Below are positions 84 through 18,980 of a stretch of DNA of 20,634 bases, piece after piece. The stretch comes from a virus: positions 1 to 20,634 of IMG/VR virus record IMGVR_UViG_3300035204_000619, one strand, 5' to 3'. The position numbers were made by a program, and so were the translations under genes. The notes under the pieces were generated by a model. It was given only the letters and a program-made list of their open reading frames with translations, made no database searches and was not told the origin of the DNA. The stretch's first letter is position 1. Each line of letters opens with the position of its first letter.

Positions 84-138
84 AATTTATTTTCCTGACG
101 ATTCATAATTTATTCTCCTTATTCATAGTTTATTCTCC
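78..138 (-). repeat. Triplicated ribosome-binding site plus start codon
   Basis: Three near-identical copies of GGAGAATAAAYTATGAAT occupy 121-138, 101-118 and 78-95 (minus strand), the last with GGAAAA in place of GGAGAA. The copies are 20 and 23 bases apart, so the three ATGs are in different frames. The first two ATGs open peptides MNKENKL (126-103) and MNRQENKL (106-80). Each of these ends in a TGA that overlaps the next ATG. The first copy also encodes the last codons and stop of dUTPase. Only the third ATG opens the downstream gene. This looks like tandem duplication of a translation initiation region. Confidence 0.8.
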
Positions 139-591
139 AGTGGACCCAAATCCACCATCACGGTTTGTCTTTAGTGTTGGTATCTCGTCCAACAACCTAA
201 AAGTAGTCTTTTCATTCTTCACAAGTTCACCTTGGCAAACTCTATCACCCTGCTTTATATATTGCGTTTCATTTGAACTATTTATCATCAGAACAAAAAC
301 TTCTTCAACATAATCCGAATCAATAACACCTTCACAGTTGGCCAAAGAGAGGCCTTTCTTCAAAGATAATCCCGACCTCGGATGCAACCGAACAGAATGT
401 CCTTTTGGTATATCCAAAATCAAACCAGTGGGGATAAGTACCCGTTGATTTGGTTTCAATTCTAAATCCGATTCTACACACGCATACAAATCAAAACAAG
501 CAGAATCAGCAGTACCATATGTTGGCACCGTTGCATATTCTGATAGTTTATATGCTCCAATAATTGCTACTCTATTTCTACAACAACTCAT
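130..591 (-). CDS. dut: dUTP diphosphatase (dUTPase)
   Basis: A trimeric-type dUTPase of 153 residues that hydrolyses dUTP to dUMP and pyrophosphate, keeping uracil out of DNA and supplying dUMP for dTMP synthesis. The family motifs are in order: ADSACFDLYA near 28-37 (motif 1), PRSGLSLKKG at 71-80 (motif 2), GVIDSDYVEEV at 88-98 (motif 3, with the Asp and Tyr present), GDRVCQGEL at 115-123 (motif 4) and RDGGFGSTG at 144-152 (motif 5, C-terminal arm). Length is typical. The ATG overlaps the stop of the upstream glycosyltransferase-like gene as ATGA, with GAGGAG upstream. It complements dCMP deaminase elsewhere in the window in the dUMP/dTMP pathway. Confidence 0.95.
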   Translation of the reverse strand: MSCCRNRVAIIGAYKLSEYATVPTYGTADSACFDLYACVESDLELKPNQRVLIPTGLILDIPKGHSVRLHPRSGLSLKKGLSLANCEGVIDSDYVEEVFVLMINSSNETQYIKQGDRVCQGELVKNEKTTFRLLDEIPTLKTNRDGGFGSTGE

Positions 592-6757: not shown

Positions 6758-7591
6758 CTAAAAATCTTCAATCACATCTATAAGATTACGCAAACGATGC
6801 GTTATCATATAATTTAGCATATTAGAACGACCTGCTGTTTCTTGAGAATCAAACTGTTCTAATATCTGAGATTCTAAATCCTCTGGTATATATGAAAAAT
6901 CAATTAAAGTTTGATTTCTTTGCCAATTTCTTTCCTTAGTCCAAGGCGTCAAATCTTCAAGAATTTTTGCAATTTTCACTTTACCACAAGGCCTTTGTCT
7001 TTTATCTTTATTTATAAAAGCATCATCATCAGAGAGAAGGTTCGGAATACCATCCGAAGAATCTCCCTTGATGATGTGTTCTATCAAAAATGATTGAGGG
7101 TCTTCACATACTAGCAACTTCTTGTGAAGTGGAGTATATTGCTTTACATTTTCATATCGTTGCAACTGTTGAAAGTCCTTATCAGAAGAAATTATCATAA
7201 TCTTTTCTTCCGAATGGTATTTTTTACACATTGTTGCAATAATATCATCTGCTTCGCATTTAGGCATAAACAAATGTTTATATGGAAAGTTTTCTTTCAC
7301 TTCGGTTCTAATTATATCAAAAACCGTAAATACATCGTCCCAATTCAAAGAAGATTTTTCCTTTTGTTTCTTTCTGTTTGCTTTGTATTCAGGAAAGAAA
7401 TCTTTCCGCCATACATTTCCAGAATCGTGGCATATTACCAATTCACCGTATTCTTTTGAAAACTTATTCTTGAAAAATCTATAAGTATTCAACACCATAT
7501 GACGAACCAAATCTTCCGAAAAATCTTCACCATTACGAGTTTGAGCAAACAAACTTCCAATGATAATTTGATTATTGTCTATTAAAATCAT
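6758..7591 (-). CDS. rnh: RNase H, 5'-3' exonuclease (T4 Rnh / FEN-1 family)
   Basis: A 277-residue homologue of T4 RNase H (305 residues), which removes RNA primers and adjacent DNA from lagging-strand fragments. Metal-binding acidic motifs are visible: ILIDNNQI near 2-9, CHDSGNVWRKDFFPEYKANR near 54-73 (the DxxxxxWRxxxxxxYKxxR pattern), EADD at 113-116, SSDKDF at 135-140 and GDSSDGIP at 176-183. The ending, LRNLIDVIEDF, matches the T4 end in character. The start is set by alignment of MILIDN with the T4 core. No clear Shine-Dalgarno lies before it. The 93-base upstream spacer is AT-rich with a weak hairpin. Confidence 0.92.
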   Translation of the reverse strand: MILIDNNQIIIGSLFAQTRNGEDFSEDLVRHMVLNTYRFFKNKFSKEYGELVICHDSGNVWRKDFFPEYKANRKKQKEKSSLNWDDVFTVFDIIRTEVKENFPYKHLFMPKCEADDIIATMCKKYHSEEKIMIISSDKDFQQLQRYENVKQYTPLHKKLLVCEDPQSFLIEHIIKGDSSDGIPNLLSDDDAFINKDKRQRPCGKVKIAKILEDLTPWTKERNWQRNQTLIDFSYIPEDLESQILEQFDSQETAGRSNMLNYMITHRLRNLIDVIEDF

Positions 7592-7684: not shown

Positions 7685-8776
7685 CTATTTTGAAGCAACT
7701 TTCTCCTTGCTTGTTGTTGCGATTTCTGAATCAACACGAAGGATACTATCCAACAAAGAAGCGATTGCTTCGTATGGGTCAATATTTCCACCAGGCCGTC
7801 TATCTTCAAGATAATTTTTGTTGTGTGGAATACGAATAGCAGTCGTTCGGTCACTATCACCCCACTCAAAAGTATCAATATGGCAAGTTTCATTTTTACC
7901 TGTCAATCGGTTTTCATTCCCAATACCATAAACTTTAATATGCTTTTTGTGGTCTTCTGAAATTCCTACCAACAAATCATCAATGTATCGTTTATTATCA
8001 TCGTTATCACGCAAAGTTGGTGTACTGAAATTGATATGACATCCTGTTCCTGCCCAACTATCATTATCCTTGAATAGTTTCGGATAATATTCTACTGCAA
8101 AATCATTTTCTTCTGCAAGTTGGTCATAAAGAAATCGTGCCATCCACAAATCATCTGCAACATCCAATGCTGTATTTGGGCCCAACTGATATTCCCACTG
8201 TGAAAGCATTACTTCTGCATTTGTACCTGTCAGAGTTAATCCTAAATCGATACACCTTCGAGCATGTTCTCGTACAATGTCTTTACCACGAATAAAGTTA
8301 CCTGTTCCACAATAATAACGACCTTGTGGGCCTGGGAACATTGTCTTTTCAGTCTTTTCTTCTTCATCCCAACGAGTTGGCCATAGATATGGTTGTTGAT
8401 TTTTTGGATTTATGAAAATATATTCTTGTTCAACTCCAAACAAAATACTATTCGCATCTTCGTTTTTATCTACAATTTTCAAAAGGTCTGACCTTGTATT
8501 TGAAATGTGTGGATTCCCTTTAGTGTTGTATACTTCACATAAAACATATCCTCTTTGTGGATTTTCTGATGACATATACAACTTTCGTGGTTTCAAAACC
8601 ATATCACTGTTAGAAACTTCTGCTTGATTGGTACTTGAACCATCAAATCCCCACTCTGGGATGTCATCAATATCTAAATTTCTATCCGATTTAATATACT
8701 TTGTTTTGGTTCGCATACCAGTATGCTCTCCACCATCTAACCAAATATATTCTAACTCAAAAACATTTTCTCTCAT
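7685..8776 (-). CDS. glnA-like: Glutamine synthetase, type II (eukaryotic-like GSII)
   Basis: A complete 363-residue glutamine synthetase that forms glutamine from glutamate, ammonia and ATP. Size and motifs fit the compact GSII family rather than bacterial GSI: YIWLDGG near 10-16, WGFDGSSTNQA at 42-52, FGVEQEY at 113-119, FPGPQGRYYCG at 147-157, NAEVMLSQWEYQLGP at 186-200, WAGTGCHINFS at 241-251, NRLTGKNET at 289-297 and EDRRPGGNIDPY at 324-335. The metal-, ATP- and glutamate-binding signatures all look intact. The short C-terminal tail (TSKEKVASK) has no adenylylation motif. An AAAGGAT site precedes the ATG. It follows a methyltransferase gene by 23 bases. As a phage-carried metabolic gene it may raise glutamine supply for nucleotide synthesis in infected cells. 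Confidence 0.95.
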   Translation of the reverse strand: MRENVFELEYIWLDGGEHTGMRTKTKYIKSDRNLDIDDIPEWGFDGSSTNQAEVSNSDMVLKPRKLYMSSENPQRGYVLCEVYNTKGNPHISNTRSDLLKIVDKNEDANSILFGVEQEYIFINPKNQQPYLWPTRWDEEEKTEKTMFPGPQGRYYCGTGNFIRGKDIVREHARRCIDLGLTLTGTNAEVMLSQWEYQLGPNTALDVADDLWMARFLYDQLAEENDFAVEYYPKLFKDNDSWAGTGCHINFSTPTLRDNDDNKRYIDDLLVGISEDHKKHIKVYGIGNENRLTGKNETCHIDTFEWGDSDRTTAIRIPHNKNYLEDRRPGGNIDPYEAIASLLDSILRVDSEIATTSKEKVASK

Positions 8777-8799
8777 AATAAATCCTTTATCATTACTAA

Positions 8800-10407
8800 C
8801 TACTTTTTATGGAACACAAATATGGGTTCATATTTGTAAAATGTTCCATTTATTTTACAAAAATTCTTACACTTGGGAACACCATTTTCGTCTAATCTAT
8901 TCTGGCCAGGCATTCCCTCCATGGCCATCTTCAATGTATATTTATACTCCATTCCAAGACTTTCTAAAATATCTCTGGAATCTTTTTCTAATGGAAGGTA
9001 GTTTCCTTTGACTAAAAGGTCTGCAACATTCCACAACAAATATCTGTCATTTGCCAAAAACTCAACACAAGTTTCTAGTGTTGGTCTTAGGAATCCATCT
9101 CTCCACGATTCGTAGGATGTTCCGTATCTTTTGTAAGATTGGTTTTCATCCTCTGAATATGCTTCTCTATTGAAATAAGGCGGTGAAGTAAAGATGAGGT
9201 CAATCTTTCCTCTATATTGTTGGAAGTCTGGGTGTCTTCCGATGTCTTCGGCACACTCTTGGAAGATGTGATATGTGTTTGGTTCACTGAGGAATGAACT
9301 TCCTCTGTATGTGTTTGAGTTGTAGAACTCTGCGACATCTTCATACTTAGACACACTATCCCCATCAACAATGCGAACATTATCAGGATTGGGGTCAGTG
9401 CCAATATAATGGATGCACCTATCATCACGACAGGACATAGCACCAAGAATGCGGCCGCCCCAACCAGAACTTGGGTCATAAATGTTAATAATTTCTTCAT
9501 CTTTACAATGCTCCGTAAATCTTTCATACACACACTTTGCAGTTGCAGGTGGATAATTGTGTGCGACTTGAATATATCCTATTCTAAAAGAAGCAAATCC
9601 TTTTGGAAAAATCTTCTCACCTAATTTATAAACTCTAATGTTATACACAGTATTGTCTGGCATATTGTCAATGTCAAATGTGCTGTGATTTTTATACTCT
9701 ATCCATCCCTTTTCTTTGTAATCTAAAACTTGTTGTTTTGTCAAATGAAGAATGTCGGATTGATTTAGTTGATGATATCCTGTGTTTACCCCTTCTCTCA
9801 TTTTCACTTCTTCAAGAATAAATCCCCTACCTCTGAAAATTTGAGGTGAATTATGAAATGCGGTCAACCACTCCTCACCTGTTTCAACTTCAACCACTGA
9901 AAACTTGGGGTCATTTTTGATAGCAGATTTTGCGTGATTATACATCGAATCTCTGCGAAAATGTCGCATTGAACCTTTATACATCTTTTCAATAAACCTG
10001 TCATCGGCAAACAAATCATATATGGAATATCCATTATCTTTATCACTATAATTAATTCTCGTTTTCATCATATTAGCAAACCATTGGTCTACCTCTGCAC
10101 CAAGTCGAACACGATTTATAATGACATCATTTTCAATGTCGGATAACTCATCTGTAAACACAAACTTTCGTTCAACAGGATATCCTTCTAACTTATTCCA
10201 TTCATCAATAATATCTTTCTCATTCTTACCTGTTCTTGGTGGATTGCCTTGATTGTCCCAAATATCAACGATTGTTTTTCTCATCTCAATAACCCAATCA
10301 CGAAATTCGTCAGGGGTCATATTTACCAAATCGTCAAAGTGACAATTAATTTCGTGATTCAATAAAGCATCATTTCTTTCAAAAAATGGTTTTGTCATAA
10401 CTTTCAT
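8800..10407 (-). CDS. DNA methyltransferase (SPPY type) with long N-terminal region
   Basis: A 535-residue protein whose C-terminal part is a SAM-dependent amino-methyltransferase of DNA. Motif I, YDPSSGWGGRILGA at 310-323, binds SAM. The catalytic motif FTSPPYFNREAY at 406-417 is the S-P-P-Y form used for exocyclic amino groups (N6-adenine or N4-cytosine). Motif I precedes motif IV. The roughly 300-residue N-terminal region is not recognised; it includes RYERF-like and HFRRDSMYNHAK segments and might recognise the DNA target. The start overlaps the SET gene stop (ATGA). Modification could protect phage DNA from host nucleases; the target sequence is unknown and no partner restriction enzyme is seen. 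Confidence 0.85.
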   Translation of the reverse strand: MKVMTKPFFERNDALLNHEINCHFDDLVNMTPDEFRDWVIEMRKTIVDIWDNQGNPPRTGKNEKDIIDEWNKLEGYPVERKFVFTDELSDIENDVIINRVRLGAEVDQWFANMMKTRINYSDKDNGYSIYDLFADDRFIEKMYKGSMRHFRRDSMYNHAKSAIKNDPKFSVVEVETGEEWLTAFHNSPQIFRGRGFILEEVKMREGVNTGYHQLNQSDILHLTKQQVLDYKEKGWIEYKNHSTFDIDNMPDNTVYNIRVYKLGEKIFPKGFASFRIGYIQVAHNYPPATAKCVYERFTEHCKDEEIINIYDPSSGWGGRILGAMSCRDDRCIHYIGTDPNPDNVRIVDGDSVSKYEDVAEFYNSNTYRGSSFLSEPNTYHIFQECAEDIGRHPDFQQYRGKIDLIFTSPPYFNREAYSEDENQSYKRYGTSYESWRDGFLRPTLETCVEFLANDRYLLWNVADLLVKGNYLPLEKDSRDILESLGMEYKYTLKMAMEGMPGQNRLDENGVPKCKNFCKINGTFYKYEPIFVFHKK

Positions 10408-10841
10408 TTCACTTCTTCTGTTGTCATATTACCATAACCAGGCCCATAATAGTGTAAAATTTCTTCACCCTTTTCAATTGGTTTTATTGCTGTAACTGTT
10501 ATTGTTCTGGACTTTGCATCATATTTAAATTCTATATGTGAACGGGATTTCTTGACACTATTATTATAGAGTTGAATATATCCTGTTGCTAAGATAAAAT
10601 TCATCCCTCTATTTTGACAAGTTTTACACCTACAAGGCAAAGTATAACAAATTTGTCTAATTTCTTTATGAATTAAATCTGGTTGACGATATCCCGTCAC
10701 CACAAACGGTGCAACTTCTAGGACTTCGCCTTCTTGGATATCTTCCGAGGCAAAAACCCCATATCCACCCAAATCACTTTTCTTACCAACAATCTTTGTT
10801 GCTTGATGCAACACATCATATAATTCTTTTTTAGTTTCCAT
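10404..10841 (-). CDS. SET-domain protein
   Basis: A 145-residue protein consisting of little more than a SET domain, the fold of protein-lysine methyltransferases. The N-terminal signature GGYGVFASEDIQEGEVLE is at 25-42. LYNNS near 91-95 stands where the family usually has N-H-S. AIKPIEKGEEILHYYG near 118-133 matches the terminal A-x-x-x-I-x-x-G-E-E-L-x-x-x-Y-G motif. Pre- and post-SET Cys clusters are reduced; a CRCKTC segment near 70-75 may bind metal. The substrate is unknown. A strong sigma70-like promoter lies so close upstream that its transcript would have almost no leader. The stop overlaps the methyltransferase start. Confidence 0.85.
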   Translation of the reverse strand: METKKELYDVLHQATKIVGKKSDLGGYGVFASEDIQEGEVLEVAPFVVTGYRQPDLIHKEIRQICYTLPCRCKTCQNRGMNFILATGYIQLYNNSVKKSRSHIEFKYDAKSRTITVTAIKPIEKGEEILHYYGPGYGNMTTEEVK

Positions 10842-10849
10842 AATCTTTC

Positions 10850-10877
10850 ATTATATCCATATTTATCATAAAGTCAA
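10850..10877 (-). promoter_or_regulatory. Sigma70-like promoter before SET gene
   Basis: TTGACT (10877-10872) and a perfect TATAAT (10855-10850) are separated by exactly 16 bases on the minus strand. A second TTGACT starts five bases upstream. The -35 box overlaps the last codons of the PLP-enzyme gene. The expected start site falls about 2-3 bases before the SET ATG. Confidence 0.7.
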
Positions 10878-11816
10878 GTCAAAATTATCATATACTTCTT
10901 CTTTTGTTGGCCGTCTTCCAACAACCCAAAAAAGTGTTTTATTAGAAATATCAATATTTTCTTTCATCCACTTATGTGCTTTTGCCTCATATAGTTCATC
11001 AAACATTTCACCGTCACCGAAAAACTCTTGTTCACCTTTTCCATATTGTGTTTTTAGTGGAATCATTTTATAGTCATGAATAGGATATTCAAGAGGATTA
11101 ACATAATAATCAATTTTCTTACTTCTATCTGGCCCCACACATATACCATATATGTTTTTTATTGTCTTTTCGTATTTTACAATTCCACGAAGAATTGCAG
11201 CCATTTGTATACCACTCCCGACAGGTACTATTAAGTTTTCCAAAGTGTCTGGAATGTTCATCACCTGTTCTGTGATTGGGTCTAAAATACTTTCAGGAAA
11301 ATTGTCTACATTATCACTATAAACCACATTGAATGCATTTTCTGCTTCTGCAAGTTTTCTCATTCGTGATAAGACAGGACCGTGCATCCCTGTACCACAT
11401 ACATTTCTAATGTCTGCACCAAAATGTCTGGCAAGTGCCATCATGTGATGATTATATAAAGTTGTCGGGGATGAACCACCCACACAAATTATACATTCTA
11501 AGCCGTAAAACTGACAAACTTGTGTCATAATCGTACCAGAGGTGGAATGCACTTGTGTGTGGGTGATTACTTTACCACCGAAATCTTCTTTGATTGTTTC
11601 TAAATTGTTTTTGATAAGCATAATTGCTTGTCTTACTTTACCACCATTCATACCATTCTTTCCAAATGGTTGAAACAAATCATCTCTCTTATACAGAATA
11701 CCATCGTACTCTTGTATAGGTGTGTTTTCGTTTATAATTTGATACTCTACCAATGGGGCCTCCGTTGTCGTTGTATTAGAATGGAAGGGAAGTTCTGAAT
11801 TGTCTGAATGATTCAT
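10866..11816 (-). CDS. Fold-type II PLP-dependent enzyme (ACC deaminase / D-cysteine desulfhydrase-like)
   Basis: A 316-residue enzyme of the tryptophan synthase beta fold. YKRDDLFQPFGKNGMNGGKV at 42-61 matches the K-R-E/D-D-L ... G-N-K-x-R motif; Lys60 is the probable PLP Schiff-base residue. THTQVHSTSGTIMTQVCQFY at 85-104 fits the Q-S-N-H-x-x substrate/phosphate loop region, and VPVGSGIQMAA near 205-215 is the Gly-rich phosphate-binding loop. In characterised relatives such enzymes deaminate ACC or desulfurate D-cysteine, releasing ammonia; the substrate here is not predictable. The ATG at 11816 is chosen over a start nine codons upstream because GAGGAG lies at correct spacing. It overlaps the methyltransferase-like gene by 41 bases. 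Neighbouring glutamine synthetase could use released ammonia. Confidence 0.8.
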   Translation of the reverse strand: MNHSDNSELPFHSNTTTTEAPLVEYQIINENTPIQEYDGILYKRDDLFQPFGKNGMNGGKVRQAIMLIKNNLETIKEDFGGKVITHTQVHSTSGTIMTQVCQFYGLECIICVGGSSPTTLYNHHMMALARHFGADIRNVCGTGMHGPVLSRMRKLAEAENAFNVVYSDNVDNFPESILDPITEQVMNIPDTLENLIVPVGSGIQMAAILRGIVKYEKTIKNIYGICVGPDRSKKIDYYVNPLEYPIHDYKMIPLKTQYGKGEQEFFGDGEMFDELYEAKAHKWMKENIDISNKTLFWVVGRRPTKEEVYDNFDLTL

Positions 11817-12447
11817 TATAAAAATTCTCCTCTGATTCTGCACCCCAATATCGTCTATTCATTTGCTCTGCTGTAAATAAGACAGGGGCAACACCTGCAA
11901 ACGGGTCAACTACCATATCACCTTCTTCTGTTAGGTTAGAAATTACATACTCACAAAAATCTTTTGACCACACAGATTGATTTAAAACCTTACTCTGTTT
12001 ATCAACATAAATATCCCTCAACCAATCTCCTTTTCTTGTGATTGTGCCTTTGTATGTATACACTAACATATGTTGAAATGTAAAATAGTACATATCCCTT
12101 TTACCGACTTCATTGCGAACAACAATTTTATAGTCCTTCAATATCATTCCTTGTTCTTCAAGACATTTAGCATACCACATATGATTGGAAAGGATTGAAC
12201 CGTTTACTCGTCTGTCCGTTTGGCAGATTACAACGAACCCGTCCTTCTTTACGATTCGTGCAAACTGTTCTGTTGCCTTTTTCTGAAAATCTTGATACGA
12301 CTCAATGCCATCTTTTGATTTGTCGAATTCTGTTTGAGATAAATCTGGACAAGAAGTAAACACTAAATCAACAGATTGGTCTGGTATATTTGGCATATAA
12401 TCAAACGCATCACCTTTTACATAATCATCAATTTTATAATTCATCAT
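11776..12447 (-). CDS. DNA methyltransferase-like protein (N4/N6 family) with altered catalytic motif
   Basis: A 223-residue protein with the circularly permuted order of beta-class N4/N6 methyltransferases: the catalytic region first, SAM-binding motif last. VDLVFTSCPDLSQTEF near 26-41 occupies the place of motif IV, but the usual S/D-P-P-Y/W reads S-C-P-D. WSKDFCEYVISNLTEEGDMV and VDPFAGVAPVLFTAEQMNRR near 180-199 give motif X and motif I, though the usual G-x-G reads G-V-A. RRYWGAE is the following acidic strand. The SAM fold seems kept while base methylation is doubtful. It follows gp46 with an ATGATG overlap; AGGAT precedes the start, and either ATG may be used. Downstream it overlaps the PLP enzyme. 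Confidence 0.75.
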   Translation of the reverse strand: MMNYKIDDYVKGDAFDYMPNIPDQSVDLVFTSCPDLSQTEFDKSKDGIESYQDFQKKATEQFARIVKKDGFVVICQTDRRVNGSILSNHMWYAKCLEEQGMILKDYKIVVRNEVGKRDMYYFTFQHMLVYTYKGTITRKGDWLRDIYVDKQSKVLNQSVWSKDFCEYVISNLTEEGDMVVDPFAGVAPVLFTAEQMNRRYWGAESEENFYNESFRQFRTSLPF

Positions 12448-16534: not shown

Positions 16535-18022
16535 TTATATTTGAATGACTACATTCTTGTAATTAAATTTTTCGGAATTATAAATTTTCACCCGTTCCAT
16601 AAAATGTTGTAGTGTGTAATTTTGATGTGATTTATAATGTAAATCGTCTGCAATATCATATAATTTTGCACACTCCTTATATTTAGACTTTCTTAATTGC
16701 CGCCCGATGCTCTGCAATACACGAATTCTGGATTTTGAAGGTGATGAAAAAATGATATTATGCAATCGTCTAATTGAAACACCTGTACTAAATGTTCCAT
16801 AAGAGGCAACAATGATTGCATTCGTTTCATTTTCGGTAAGTTTTCTAATTTCTTCTCTTTGTTCAACATTTGTTCCACCATATATGAAGAATACCTTTCT
16901 GTTCTTATTTGCTTTACTCTTGATGAGTTCAAATAAACCTTTACCGTGTTTTTCAACATATTGAAAAAGAACTAAGGTATTTCCCTTTGTATTTAGGGCA
17001 AGATTACAAATAAATTCGTTTCTTTTTGGATTTGTTACTATGAAATCTATTTCTTCTTGATATTTGAAATTCTTTGCCAATTTACAGTCTTGTTCTGGAT
17101 GCTTTAGTAGAATACAATCAATTTTCAAATCAGACAATAGGTTATCTTCAATTAGTTTTGTGGTAGTGGTAACTTTGTATACAGGTCCGAACAAACCTTC
17201 AATAACCAATTTATGAGTATCTGTTCCATCAAGTGTTCCTGTCGTTCCTACTCTAAATGGACAATCTTTTAGTTTAGTCATCAGAGTTGTGAGAGATTTG
17301 GATTTGAAAAGATGACACTCATCTCCAAATACAGAGGTGAACTGTTCAAACCACTTTTCTGGTAATTTATAGATGCTTTGCCAAGTTGTAATTACAACTC
17401 GTTTATCTGTATTTTTATCTCTACCCGAATGTATAGTATGACACATATCTTCTGCATCCCAATTATCATTTGAACTATAATCTATAAAATCAGATTTCAT
17501 TTGTTCTACAAGTGATTTTGTAGGAACTACAATGAGGACTTTATTTTTATCCTCTTGTAGTCGTTTTCTGACTAAACCATAAATTATTAGAGATTTTCCT
17601 GATGCTGTCGGTGACAATAGCAATGTTCGTTTGTTGTTTAGAGATTGTTGCATTGCTTGAATTTGGTGTTTGTGTGGTTTTATTTTTTGCCCTGAAGCAT
17701 GGATGTTCAAAGATTCAAGATATTTATGAACCATCTGTTTAGTATATTTACCTTTGTCTTCTTCAAAATCTATACCAACCCATATGTTTCGTTCTTTTGC
17801 AAAATGTTTTACATAATCTAAAAGGCCTGCATATAAAAGTTGTGAGTGGATGTTGTATAATCTAATTTTACCATCCCACATTTTATTTCTATAAGATGGC
17901 ATAAATTGATAACCAGGCACAGTGAATGTAAAAAAATCACAAAGTTCTTGTGCAGTTCCTCTGTCACAATCTATCTTTATATTCACATCGTCTTTCTTTG
18001 TGATTATGATACTTTGGGTCAT
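16535..18022 (-). CDS. uvsW: UvsW helicase (recombination and fork remodelling)
   Basis: A 495-residue superfamily 2 helicase. In T4, UvsW unwinds R-loops and branched DNA, drives fork regression and helps switch replication from origin- to recombination-dependent initiation. The N-terminal domain has the family's VPGYQFMPSYRNKMWDGKIR near 35-54. Walker A is SPTASGKS near 137-144, motif II DECH near 234, motif III GTTGTLDG near 257-264 and motif VI QSIGRQLRKSK near 452-462. The ATG at 18022 is preferred over an upstream TTG because it forms an ATGA overlap with the dCMP deaminase stop. It sits in the same operon as uvsY. Confidence 0.93.
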   Translation of the reverse strand: MTQSIIITKKDDVNIKIDCDRGTAQELCDFFTFTVPGYQFMPSYRNKMWDGKIRLYNIHSQLLYAGLLDYVKHFAKERNIWVGIDFEEDKGKYTKQMVHKYLESLNIHASGQKIKPHKHQIQAMQQSLNNKRTLLLSPTASGKSLIIYGLVRKRLQEDKNKVLIVVPTKSLVEQMKSDFIDYSSNDNWDAEDMCHTIHSGRDKNTDKRVVITTWQSIYKLPEKWFEQFTSVFGDECHLFKSKSLTTLMTKLKDCPFRVGTTGTLDGTDTHKLVIEGLFGPVYKVTTTTKLIEDNLLSDLKIDCILLKHPEQDCKLAKNFKYQEEIDFIVTNPKRNEFICNLALNTKGNTLVLFQYVEKHGKGLFELIKSKANKNRKVFFIYGGTNVEQREEIRKLTENETNAIIVASYGTFSTGVSIRRLHNIIFSSPSKSRIRVLQSIGRQLRKSKYKECAKLYDIADDLHYKSHQNYTLQHFMERVKIYNSEKFNYKNVVIQI

Positions 18023-18543
18023 GGACTCCAAATCTTTCCACTGGTTTTGATTTTGATACGACCCTTTGAAACATCACCAGACCATAAAATGACTTCAATG
18101 TTTGCTTTTTCTAACATCTCTATACCAATATCTACTAACTTCTTTGATTCACCTGTATAACGGTCATACATTTCTTTATGACTTACTACTTTATTTATAC
18201 CACTTGCAATTATTGCTCTGGCACAATCTGGGCAACAGGCCCAAGTAGCATACATTGTTGAATCTTTTGGACTATATTTTGCTTGAAAACAACTTAAAAT
18301 AGCATTGCGTTCTGCGTGTTCAATATAGTGATATTTGTCATCAGTTTGAAGCACCTTATTACACTCTCTCAGACCCTCTGGCAAGGTATTACAACCGTGT
18401 GAGAGGGCGCCCATTGTAGGATGGACGATGACTGCTCCGACCTGTGTAGAGGGGTCAGGACTGCTGCCTGCGATTCTGTATGCGTGATGAAGGTAAGTCC
18501 TACAAATCTCACTATCAGGATATGTTTTATTGATAATTTCCAT
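18019..18543 (-). CDS. cd: dCMP deaminase
   Basis: A 174-residue zinc-dependent deoxycytidylate deaminase giving dUMP for dTMP synthesis. HAERNA at 77-82 supplies the zinc-binding His and catalytic Glu; CPDC at 104-107 supplies the two Cys ligands. DPSTQVGAVIVHP at 30-42 and SHGCNTLPEG at 48-57 are the usual early core segments. The ATG at 18543 is chosen because it forms TGATG with the uvsY stop; an in-frame GTG ten codons upstream would overlap uvsY more. Downstream it overlaps uvsW. Together with dUTPase in this window it feeds the same dUMP pool. Confidence 0.92.
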   Translation of the reverse strand: MEIINKTYPDSEICRTYLHHAYRIAGSSPDPSTQVGAVIVHPTMGALSHGCNTLPEGLRECNKVLQTDDKYHYIEHAERNAILSCFQAKYSPKDSTMYATWACCPDCARAIIASGINKVVSHKEMYDRYTGESKKLVDIGIEMLEKANIEVILWSGDVSKGRIKIKTSGKIWSP

Positions 18544-18980
18544 CAATTTATTCCACTTATAAATTTCTTCCACTCAATAGCATTTCGTATATTCCATTGC
18601 ATAGAAGATATTGCCTTTATTATATTATCCAAGTATGAAACCTTTTCTTTTTGATATGCAACCTTCATTGAAAGTTCTATTAATTCTGTATCCGAATCTA
18701 AATATTTGTCTAAATCTGCTTTAAGAATTTTGTAATTAAATTGCTCCCAACCCAATTCATATAGTTTTTCTTGACTCATCTTACCACTGTAATATTCCCA
18801 CTTCATTCTTTTCATTGTTGAATAGTTTGCTTCGTTGGTTTTCAACAACAACTTTTCATCAAATAAGAGATTGAGGTATTTGTTGTGTAATTGGGGAATC
18901 TTGATAGATTCTGTATCTAATTCTGTTTCATTTAGTGATAGGTCTTTTGCAACCATATCACGAATTTTTTCTAATTTCAT
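18543..18980 (-). CDS. uvsY: Recombination mediator UvsY
   Basis: A 145-residue homologue of T4 UvsY (137 residues), which loads UvsX recombinase onto gp32-coated single-stranded DNA. Similarity is modest but spread along the protein: MKLEKIRDMVAKDLSLNETE at 1-20 (T4 MRLEDLQEELKKD), the YYSGK segment near 64-68 (T4 YYSGR), a middle region with LDKYLDSDTELIELSMKV and a C-terminal helix with IRNAIEWKKFISGIN. Its position next to uvsW supports the call. A strong promoter and an AGGAG site are upstream. The stop overlaps the dCMP deaminase ATG. Confidence 0.82.
   Translation of the reverse strand: MKLEKIRDMVAKDLSLNETELDTESIKIPQLHNKYLNLLFDEKLLLKTNEANYSTMKRMKWEYYSGKMSQEKLYELGWEQFNYKILKADLDKYLDSDTELIELSMKVAYQKEKVSYLDNIIKAISSMQWNIRNAIEWKKFISGIN

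Follow-up and report, generated by a model that had tools for sequence, protein, structure and literature searches.

The question raised by this locus is why a phage carries, among its replication genes, a gene for glutamine synthetase (GS), and whether this gene encodes a working enzyme that would serve phage DNA replication. The window, i.e. the whole stretch of 20,634 nucleotides that was analysed, is identical with the record of its contig. It belongs to a T4-like phage: the core genes gp23, gp19, gp44, gp45, gp46, gp47, gp55, UvsW, UvsY and RegA are all found in it, with gp44, gp45, gp62 and RegA located on one side of the GS gene, and gp46, gp47, gp55, UvsW, UvsY, gp19 and gp23 on the other. 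The gene order is dUTPase, RegA, gp62, a GroES-like protein, gp44, gp45, RNase H, GS, a methyltransferase-like protein that we refer to as MT535, a SET-domain protein, a PLP-dependent enzyme, a second methyltransferase, gp46, gp47, gp55, UvsW, dCMP deaminase, UvsY, gp19 and gp23. The features of the window that bear on the GS gene are the following:

130–591, minus strand: dUTPase, nucleotide metabolism context
6758–7591, minus strand: T4-type RNase H / 5'-3' exonuclease, downstream neighbour of the GS gene
7685–8776, minus strand: type II glutamine synthetase (GSII), 363 aa, identified by the open reading frame, by Pfam, NCBIfam and PDB profile matches and by an AlphaFold model
8051–8053, minus strand: codon 242 of the GS gene, Ala, aligned with human Asn248 / GSI Asn264
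8777–8788, minus strand: Shine-Dalgarno-like AAGGA, 6 nt 5' of the GS start codon, reading AAAGGATTTATT-ATG
8800–10407, minus strand: MT535, methyltransferase-like protein of 535 aa with an SPPY motif, immediate upstream neighbour of the GS gene
10866–11843, minus strand: PLP-dependent enzyme (PALP fold), found beside the methyltransferase also in phages that lack GS
18019–18573, minus strand: dCMP deaminase, nucleotide metabolism context

The sequence-only reading had placed the GS gene between core T4-like genes; this holds for the block as a whole and for RNase H on the downstream side, but MT535, on the upstream side, is not a core T4 gene. The comparison of the whole window with deposited phages has given no near match, and the closest match of its gp46 among isolates, to cyanophages, is only 47% identical, so the window represents a lineage without a close isolate. 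A role of GS in defence has been considered and rejected: PADLOC gave no match to GS, and only generic methyltransferase matches to its neighbours. Beside the dUTPase gene, at positions 588–2901, are located three genes that look like glycosyltransferases, of which only the one at 2065–2901 matched a family (Glyco_transf_10).

The GS gene is a full-length open reading frame of 363 codons that begins with ATG; the normal length and the good ribosome-binding site that had been noted from the sequence are both confirmed, the protein falling within the compact GSII range of approximately 340–370 aa. It consists of a beta-grasp domain (residues ~8–84) and a catalytic domain (residues ~104–346), matching Gln-synt_C (1.6e-16) and Gln-synt_N (9e-9) of Pfam and the GlnII model of NCBIfam (2.2e-88), while a profile search of the PDB matches GSIIs at approximately 1e-72 to 1e-64, and GSI at 1e-8 or weaker. 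Against the GlnII equivalog model NF041605, the protein scores 297 bits, which is below the curated cut-off of 500 bits; this cut-off is passed by none of the 198 genomes of a Bacteroidota reference draw, which nonetheless carry clear GSIIs, and the model therefore describes one subgroup only. We have classed the gene by the GSII family and not by this equivalog. An AlphaFold2 model of the monomer, built from 34 sequences of the window and of related loci, has a mean pLDDT of 93, and its superposition on the Streptomyces GSII (PDB ID:4bax) gives a Z of 43.2, with an rmsd of 1.6 over 333 residues, compared with a Z of approximately 30 for GSI structures; the viral library of Foldseek yielded distant amidoligase folds, none of them usable as a match to GS. 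In a tree of 107 proteins, rooted on GSI through a long root, the split between GSII and GSI has a support of 100. The assignment of the gene to the GSII family and fold is far beyond chance, and the tree and the fold (Z of 43 versus 30) bear out the earlier proposal of a full-length GSII, as opposed to a GSI, a GSIII or another ligase. The claim that the enzyme lacks the adenylylation site of GSI also stands, by architecture, since GSII has no equivalent of the C-terminal region of GSI that bears Tyr397.

The active site has been compared in an alignment of the human, yeast and Streptomyces GSIIs with 128 viral and 43 cellular sequences. All residues of the ammonium pocket are present, with D45, S48, Y155 and E296 corresponding to human D63, S66, Y162 and E305, whose roles have been described (PMC4737493). 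The metal and ATP ligands are all kept (E134, E136, E196, E203, H253, E338, R319, R324 and R340 in human numbering), as is the arginine of the glutamate site (human R299, GSI R321), which is R290 in the window; the pocket, the metal ligands and the set of arginines are invariant, or nearly so, across the 128 viral GSIIs. The exception is residue 242, an alanine at the position of Asn264 of GSI, a residue that coordinates glutamate (PMC5403932). Asparagine occurs at this position (248 in human numbering) in 126 of the 128 other viral sequences and in 42 of the 43 cellular ones, the remaining cellular sequence reading X; alanine is found only in the window and in its 71%-identical relative, L001, which is counted twice among the 128. 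The earlier statement that all ligand-binding signatures are present is thus right for the ammonium pocket, the metal ligands and the arginines, and wrong for human Asn248, and the replacement of the equivalent of Asn264 means that the glutamate affinity or the substrate of the enzyme may be altered. Human His304 is replaced by Asn295, at a position that is variable among viral GSIIs, and an acidic insert is located near residues 134–144. The pN/pS of GS between the window and L001 is 0.27, next to 0.26 for RNase H, 0.24 for gp46 and 0.20 for gp45; despite Ala242, these values point to purifying selection on the gene, and the retained catalytic set is likewise consistent with the apparently intact, functional gene of the sequence-only reading.

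To place the gene among its relatives, we have gathered 47 IMG/VR loci, with GS alone as the query. The T4 genes of the window surround GS in 37 of these 47 uncultured contigs. MT535 directly adjoins GS in 33 of the 37, and it is the better conserved of the two: its identity to the relatives is mostly 60–76% (85% in L001), and that of GS is 39–46% (71% in L001). Empty sites also occur: in L053, the order is MT535, an ORF of 120 aa and RNase H, and in L001, it is MT535, GS, a 121-aa homologue of this small ORF (judged by eye) and RNase H. In six loci (L006, L007, L011, L012, L013 and L016), GS is located on the opposite side of MT535, an arrangement that forms a single clade of the MT535 tree (100/99). 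The distribution of GS on this tree requires three changes, and loci with GS are found on both sides of it; GS is thus an old gene of the lineage, with few losses or gains, and a dispensable one. Many close relatives keep the block without GS, and glutamine supply is therefore not generally limiting for those phages.

Three further observations concern the neighbours of GS. MT535 has a conserved N-terminal part of 280 aa that belongs to no known family, and its profile search against the PDB gave no match at an E of 0.01. Weak homologues of the SET-domain protein (10404–10841) adjoin gp46/gp47 in many relatives. PALP-like ORFs, similar to the PLP-dependent enzyme of the window, adjoin the methyltransferase-like gene whether or not the phage carries GS, and a modification pathway is possible.

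Beyond the T4-like block, a profile scan has confirmed GSII relatives on at least 592 IMG/VR viral contigs, as against only four deposited phage records, all of which are huge-phage assemblies; the GS of the window is no oddity, but one of hundreds of viral GSIIs. Several unrelated phage arrangements, including that of gp46, MT535, RNase H and gp45, have GS beside replication or nucleotide genes: GS adjoins a ribonucleotide reductase (RNR) gene in L183, the order primase, GS, ThyX, RNR is read by eye in L002 and L004, and in L045 (5021–8465) a DNA polymerase A is split, with the GS frame precisely at the junction of its UDG/exonuclease and polymerase parts. In L046 (5030–6717), GS is also located beside a split family A DNA polymerase, of which the locus covers the first junction only.

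Glutamine is the amide donor in purine and CTP synthesis. The reading that we prefer, with a probability of roughly 0.72, is that the gene encodes a working phage GSII, which would be expressed together with the replication genes and would join glutamate and ammonium, using ATP, into glutamine; the glutamine would then be the source of amide nitrogen as purines and CTP are made while the phage DNA replicates, and the phage would benefit from the additional supply. This reading is supported by the family, the fold, the nearly complete active site, purifying selection and the steady placement among replication and nucleotide genes, with which the glutamine-for-nucleotides role proposed earlier appears to fit, although such neighbours are no proof of a nucleotide role. 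The gene is structurally sound, under purifying selection and old in a T4-like lineage, and several unrelated phage groups have a GSII next to their replication genes; the notion that glutamine supply limits phage DNA synthesis is therefore a testable idea.

The strongest alternative is general nitrogen assimilation, in which the phage GS would sustain ammonium capture under nitrogen limitation, or evade the control of host GS, and would feed nucleotides and, to the same extent, amino acids and protein. The chemistry of the enzyme is identical in the two cases, the GSI adenylylation region is absent, and the host genes glnA, gltBD and amt of SAR11 are upregulated during pelagiphage infection (PMC12753301); moreover, the GS of moraphages, reported as an AMG (PMC12619734), and that of Ross Ice Shelf viruses (PMC10721903) have been interpreted as nitrogen metabolism. 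The window, however, has no recognised amt, PII or GOGAT gene, and the neighbours of GS are replication and nucleotide genes; we consider this explanation unlikely.

Ala242 gives rise to a less likely proposal, that of a substrate shift: the enzyme would be a divergent gamma-glutamyl amide ligase, which glutamylates another amine or serves the modification of nucleic acids or metabolites. Asn264 is indeed also replaced in the polyamine ligases GlnA2 (by Pro) and Haloferax GlnA-2 (by Gly), and the genes of a methyltransferase-like protein, paired with GS in most of the T4-like loci, and of a PLP enzyme are located nearby. The known ligases, however, additionally lose D50, S53, Y179 or E327, all of which are kept in the window; since the ammonium set D50/Y179/E327, whose members are lost in the GlnA2/3 and GmaS ligases, is retained in full, the proposal is weakened. 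Moreover, other GSIIs beside the same methyltransferase-like gene retain the asparagine, and each of the two genes is found without the other, which leaves a ligase of this kind improbable. That the protein is an inactive remnant, or non-catalytic, is very improbable: one glutamate-coordinating residue is changed, but the reading frame is full-length, with a ribosome-binding site, a low pN/pS and a confident model, and the remaining active site is intact.

With respect to origin, the tree of 107 proteins places the window and L001 on a long branch, amid other phage GSIIs. The human, yeast, Rickettsiales-type, and Marinimicrobia-type plus Streptomyces GSIIs form one group elsewhere, and those of Bacteroidota cluster with a different set of viral GSIIs (98). 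A recent host or eukaryotic origin has been rejected: the identity to any cellular GSII is at most approximately 46%, and the window is located outside the eukaryotic and bacterial clades, in a tree with weak deep branches. Because of these weak forks and of the long root, our claim goes no further than that none of the cellular GSIIs sampled was a recent donor of the gene; the phage GSIIs appear to be divergent lineages, rather than recent copies of sampled cellular genes. The term "eukaryotic-type", used in the sequence-only reading, is misleading for a gene that falls within a broad phage GSII set and outside the eukaryotic clade, and should not be taken to mean an origin from eukaryotes.

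Compared with the Streptomyces GlnII (4bax), yeast Gln1 (PDB ID:3fky) and human GLUL, the GS of the window has the same fold, length, catalytic acids and arginines, but it is only 38–44% identical to them, it carries the N248A and H304N replacements and the acidic insert (~134–144), and it is located outside the clade of cellular GSIIs. A large group of viral GSIIs was found beside the mimivirus GS in the Global Ocean Sampling survey of 2007 (PMC1821046); those were assigned from shotgun sequences, whereas here GSII is tied to a defined T4-like block, to relatives with empty sites and to a thioredoxin-fused form. The moraphages and Ross Ice Shelf viruses also carry a phage-borne GS, but belong to other phage groups, and the passages on their GS give neither its type nor a test of its active site. 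The four huge-phage records (LR756502, LR745206, LR756501 and LR756503), unannotated genomes of 635–735 kb, encode GSIIs that are approximately 40–42% identical to that of the window; in LR756502, the sole locus of the four that was opened, no methyltransferase-like/RNase H block surrounds GS. Phage GS genes are usually only passing entries in AMG lists. Viral GSII has been known since 2007, and several later publications describe phage GS as an AMG, the gene of the window being a divergent new member of this known kind; what is new here is the N264A replacement, the conservation of the T4-like block together with its empty sites, and the fusion to thioredoxin that relatives show.

This fused form occurs in 21 of the 47 loci, the GS of the window being unfused, as are the 363-aa GS ORFs of L005 and L017:

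L025, 5623–7116; also in L010, L014, L015, L019, L021, L023–L036, L038 and L047: thioredoxin-fused GSII with a CGWC N-terminal domain

The fusion extends the N-terminus by approximately 120 residues, which include a CGTP loop and a CGWC motif that is invariant; the profile search of this domain matches thioredoxins (E of 1e-4 to 1e-2), and so does its predicted fold (Foldseek E of 5e-5, TM of 0.66). The domain has no detectable match in any deposited phage, and our search of open-access papers has found no earlier report of a thioredoxin-GS fusion, which offers a concrete lead on how a metabolic enzyme of viruses might be controlled by redox state. A wider picture, which we consider unlikely, is that phage GSIIs form an old branch of the family, adapted to phages and retained in the replication programme of uncultured T4-like phages, that the activity of the thioredoxin-fused branch follows the redox state or electron supply, and that N264A has remodelled the glutamate site of the window lineage to suit a modified substrate or regulation. 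In four of the fused enzymes (L010, L014, L028 and L036), the segment around the metal-binding glutamate (human E196) reads GFHPEVM, where others have GTNAEVM.
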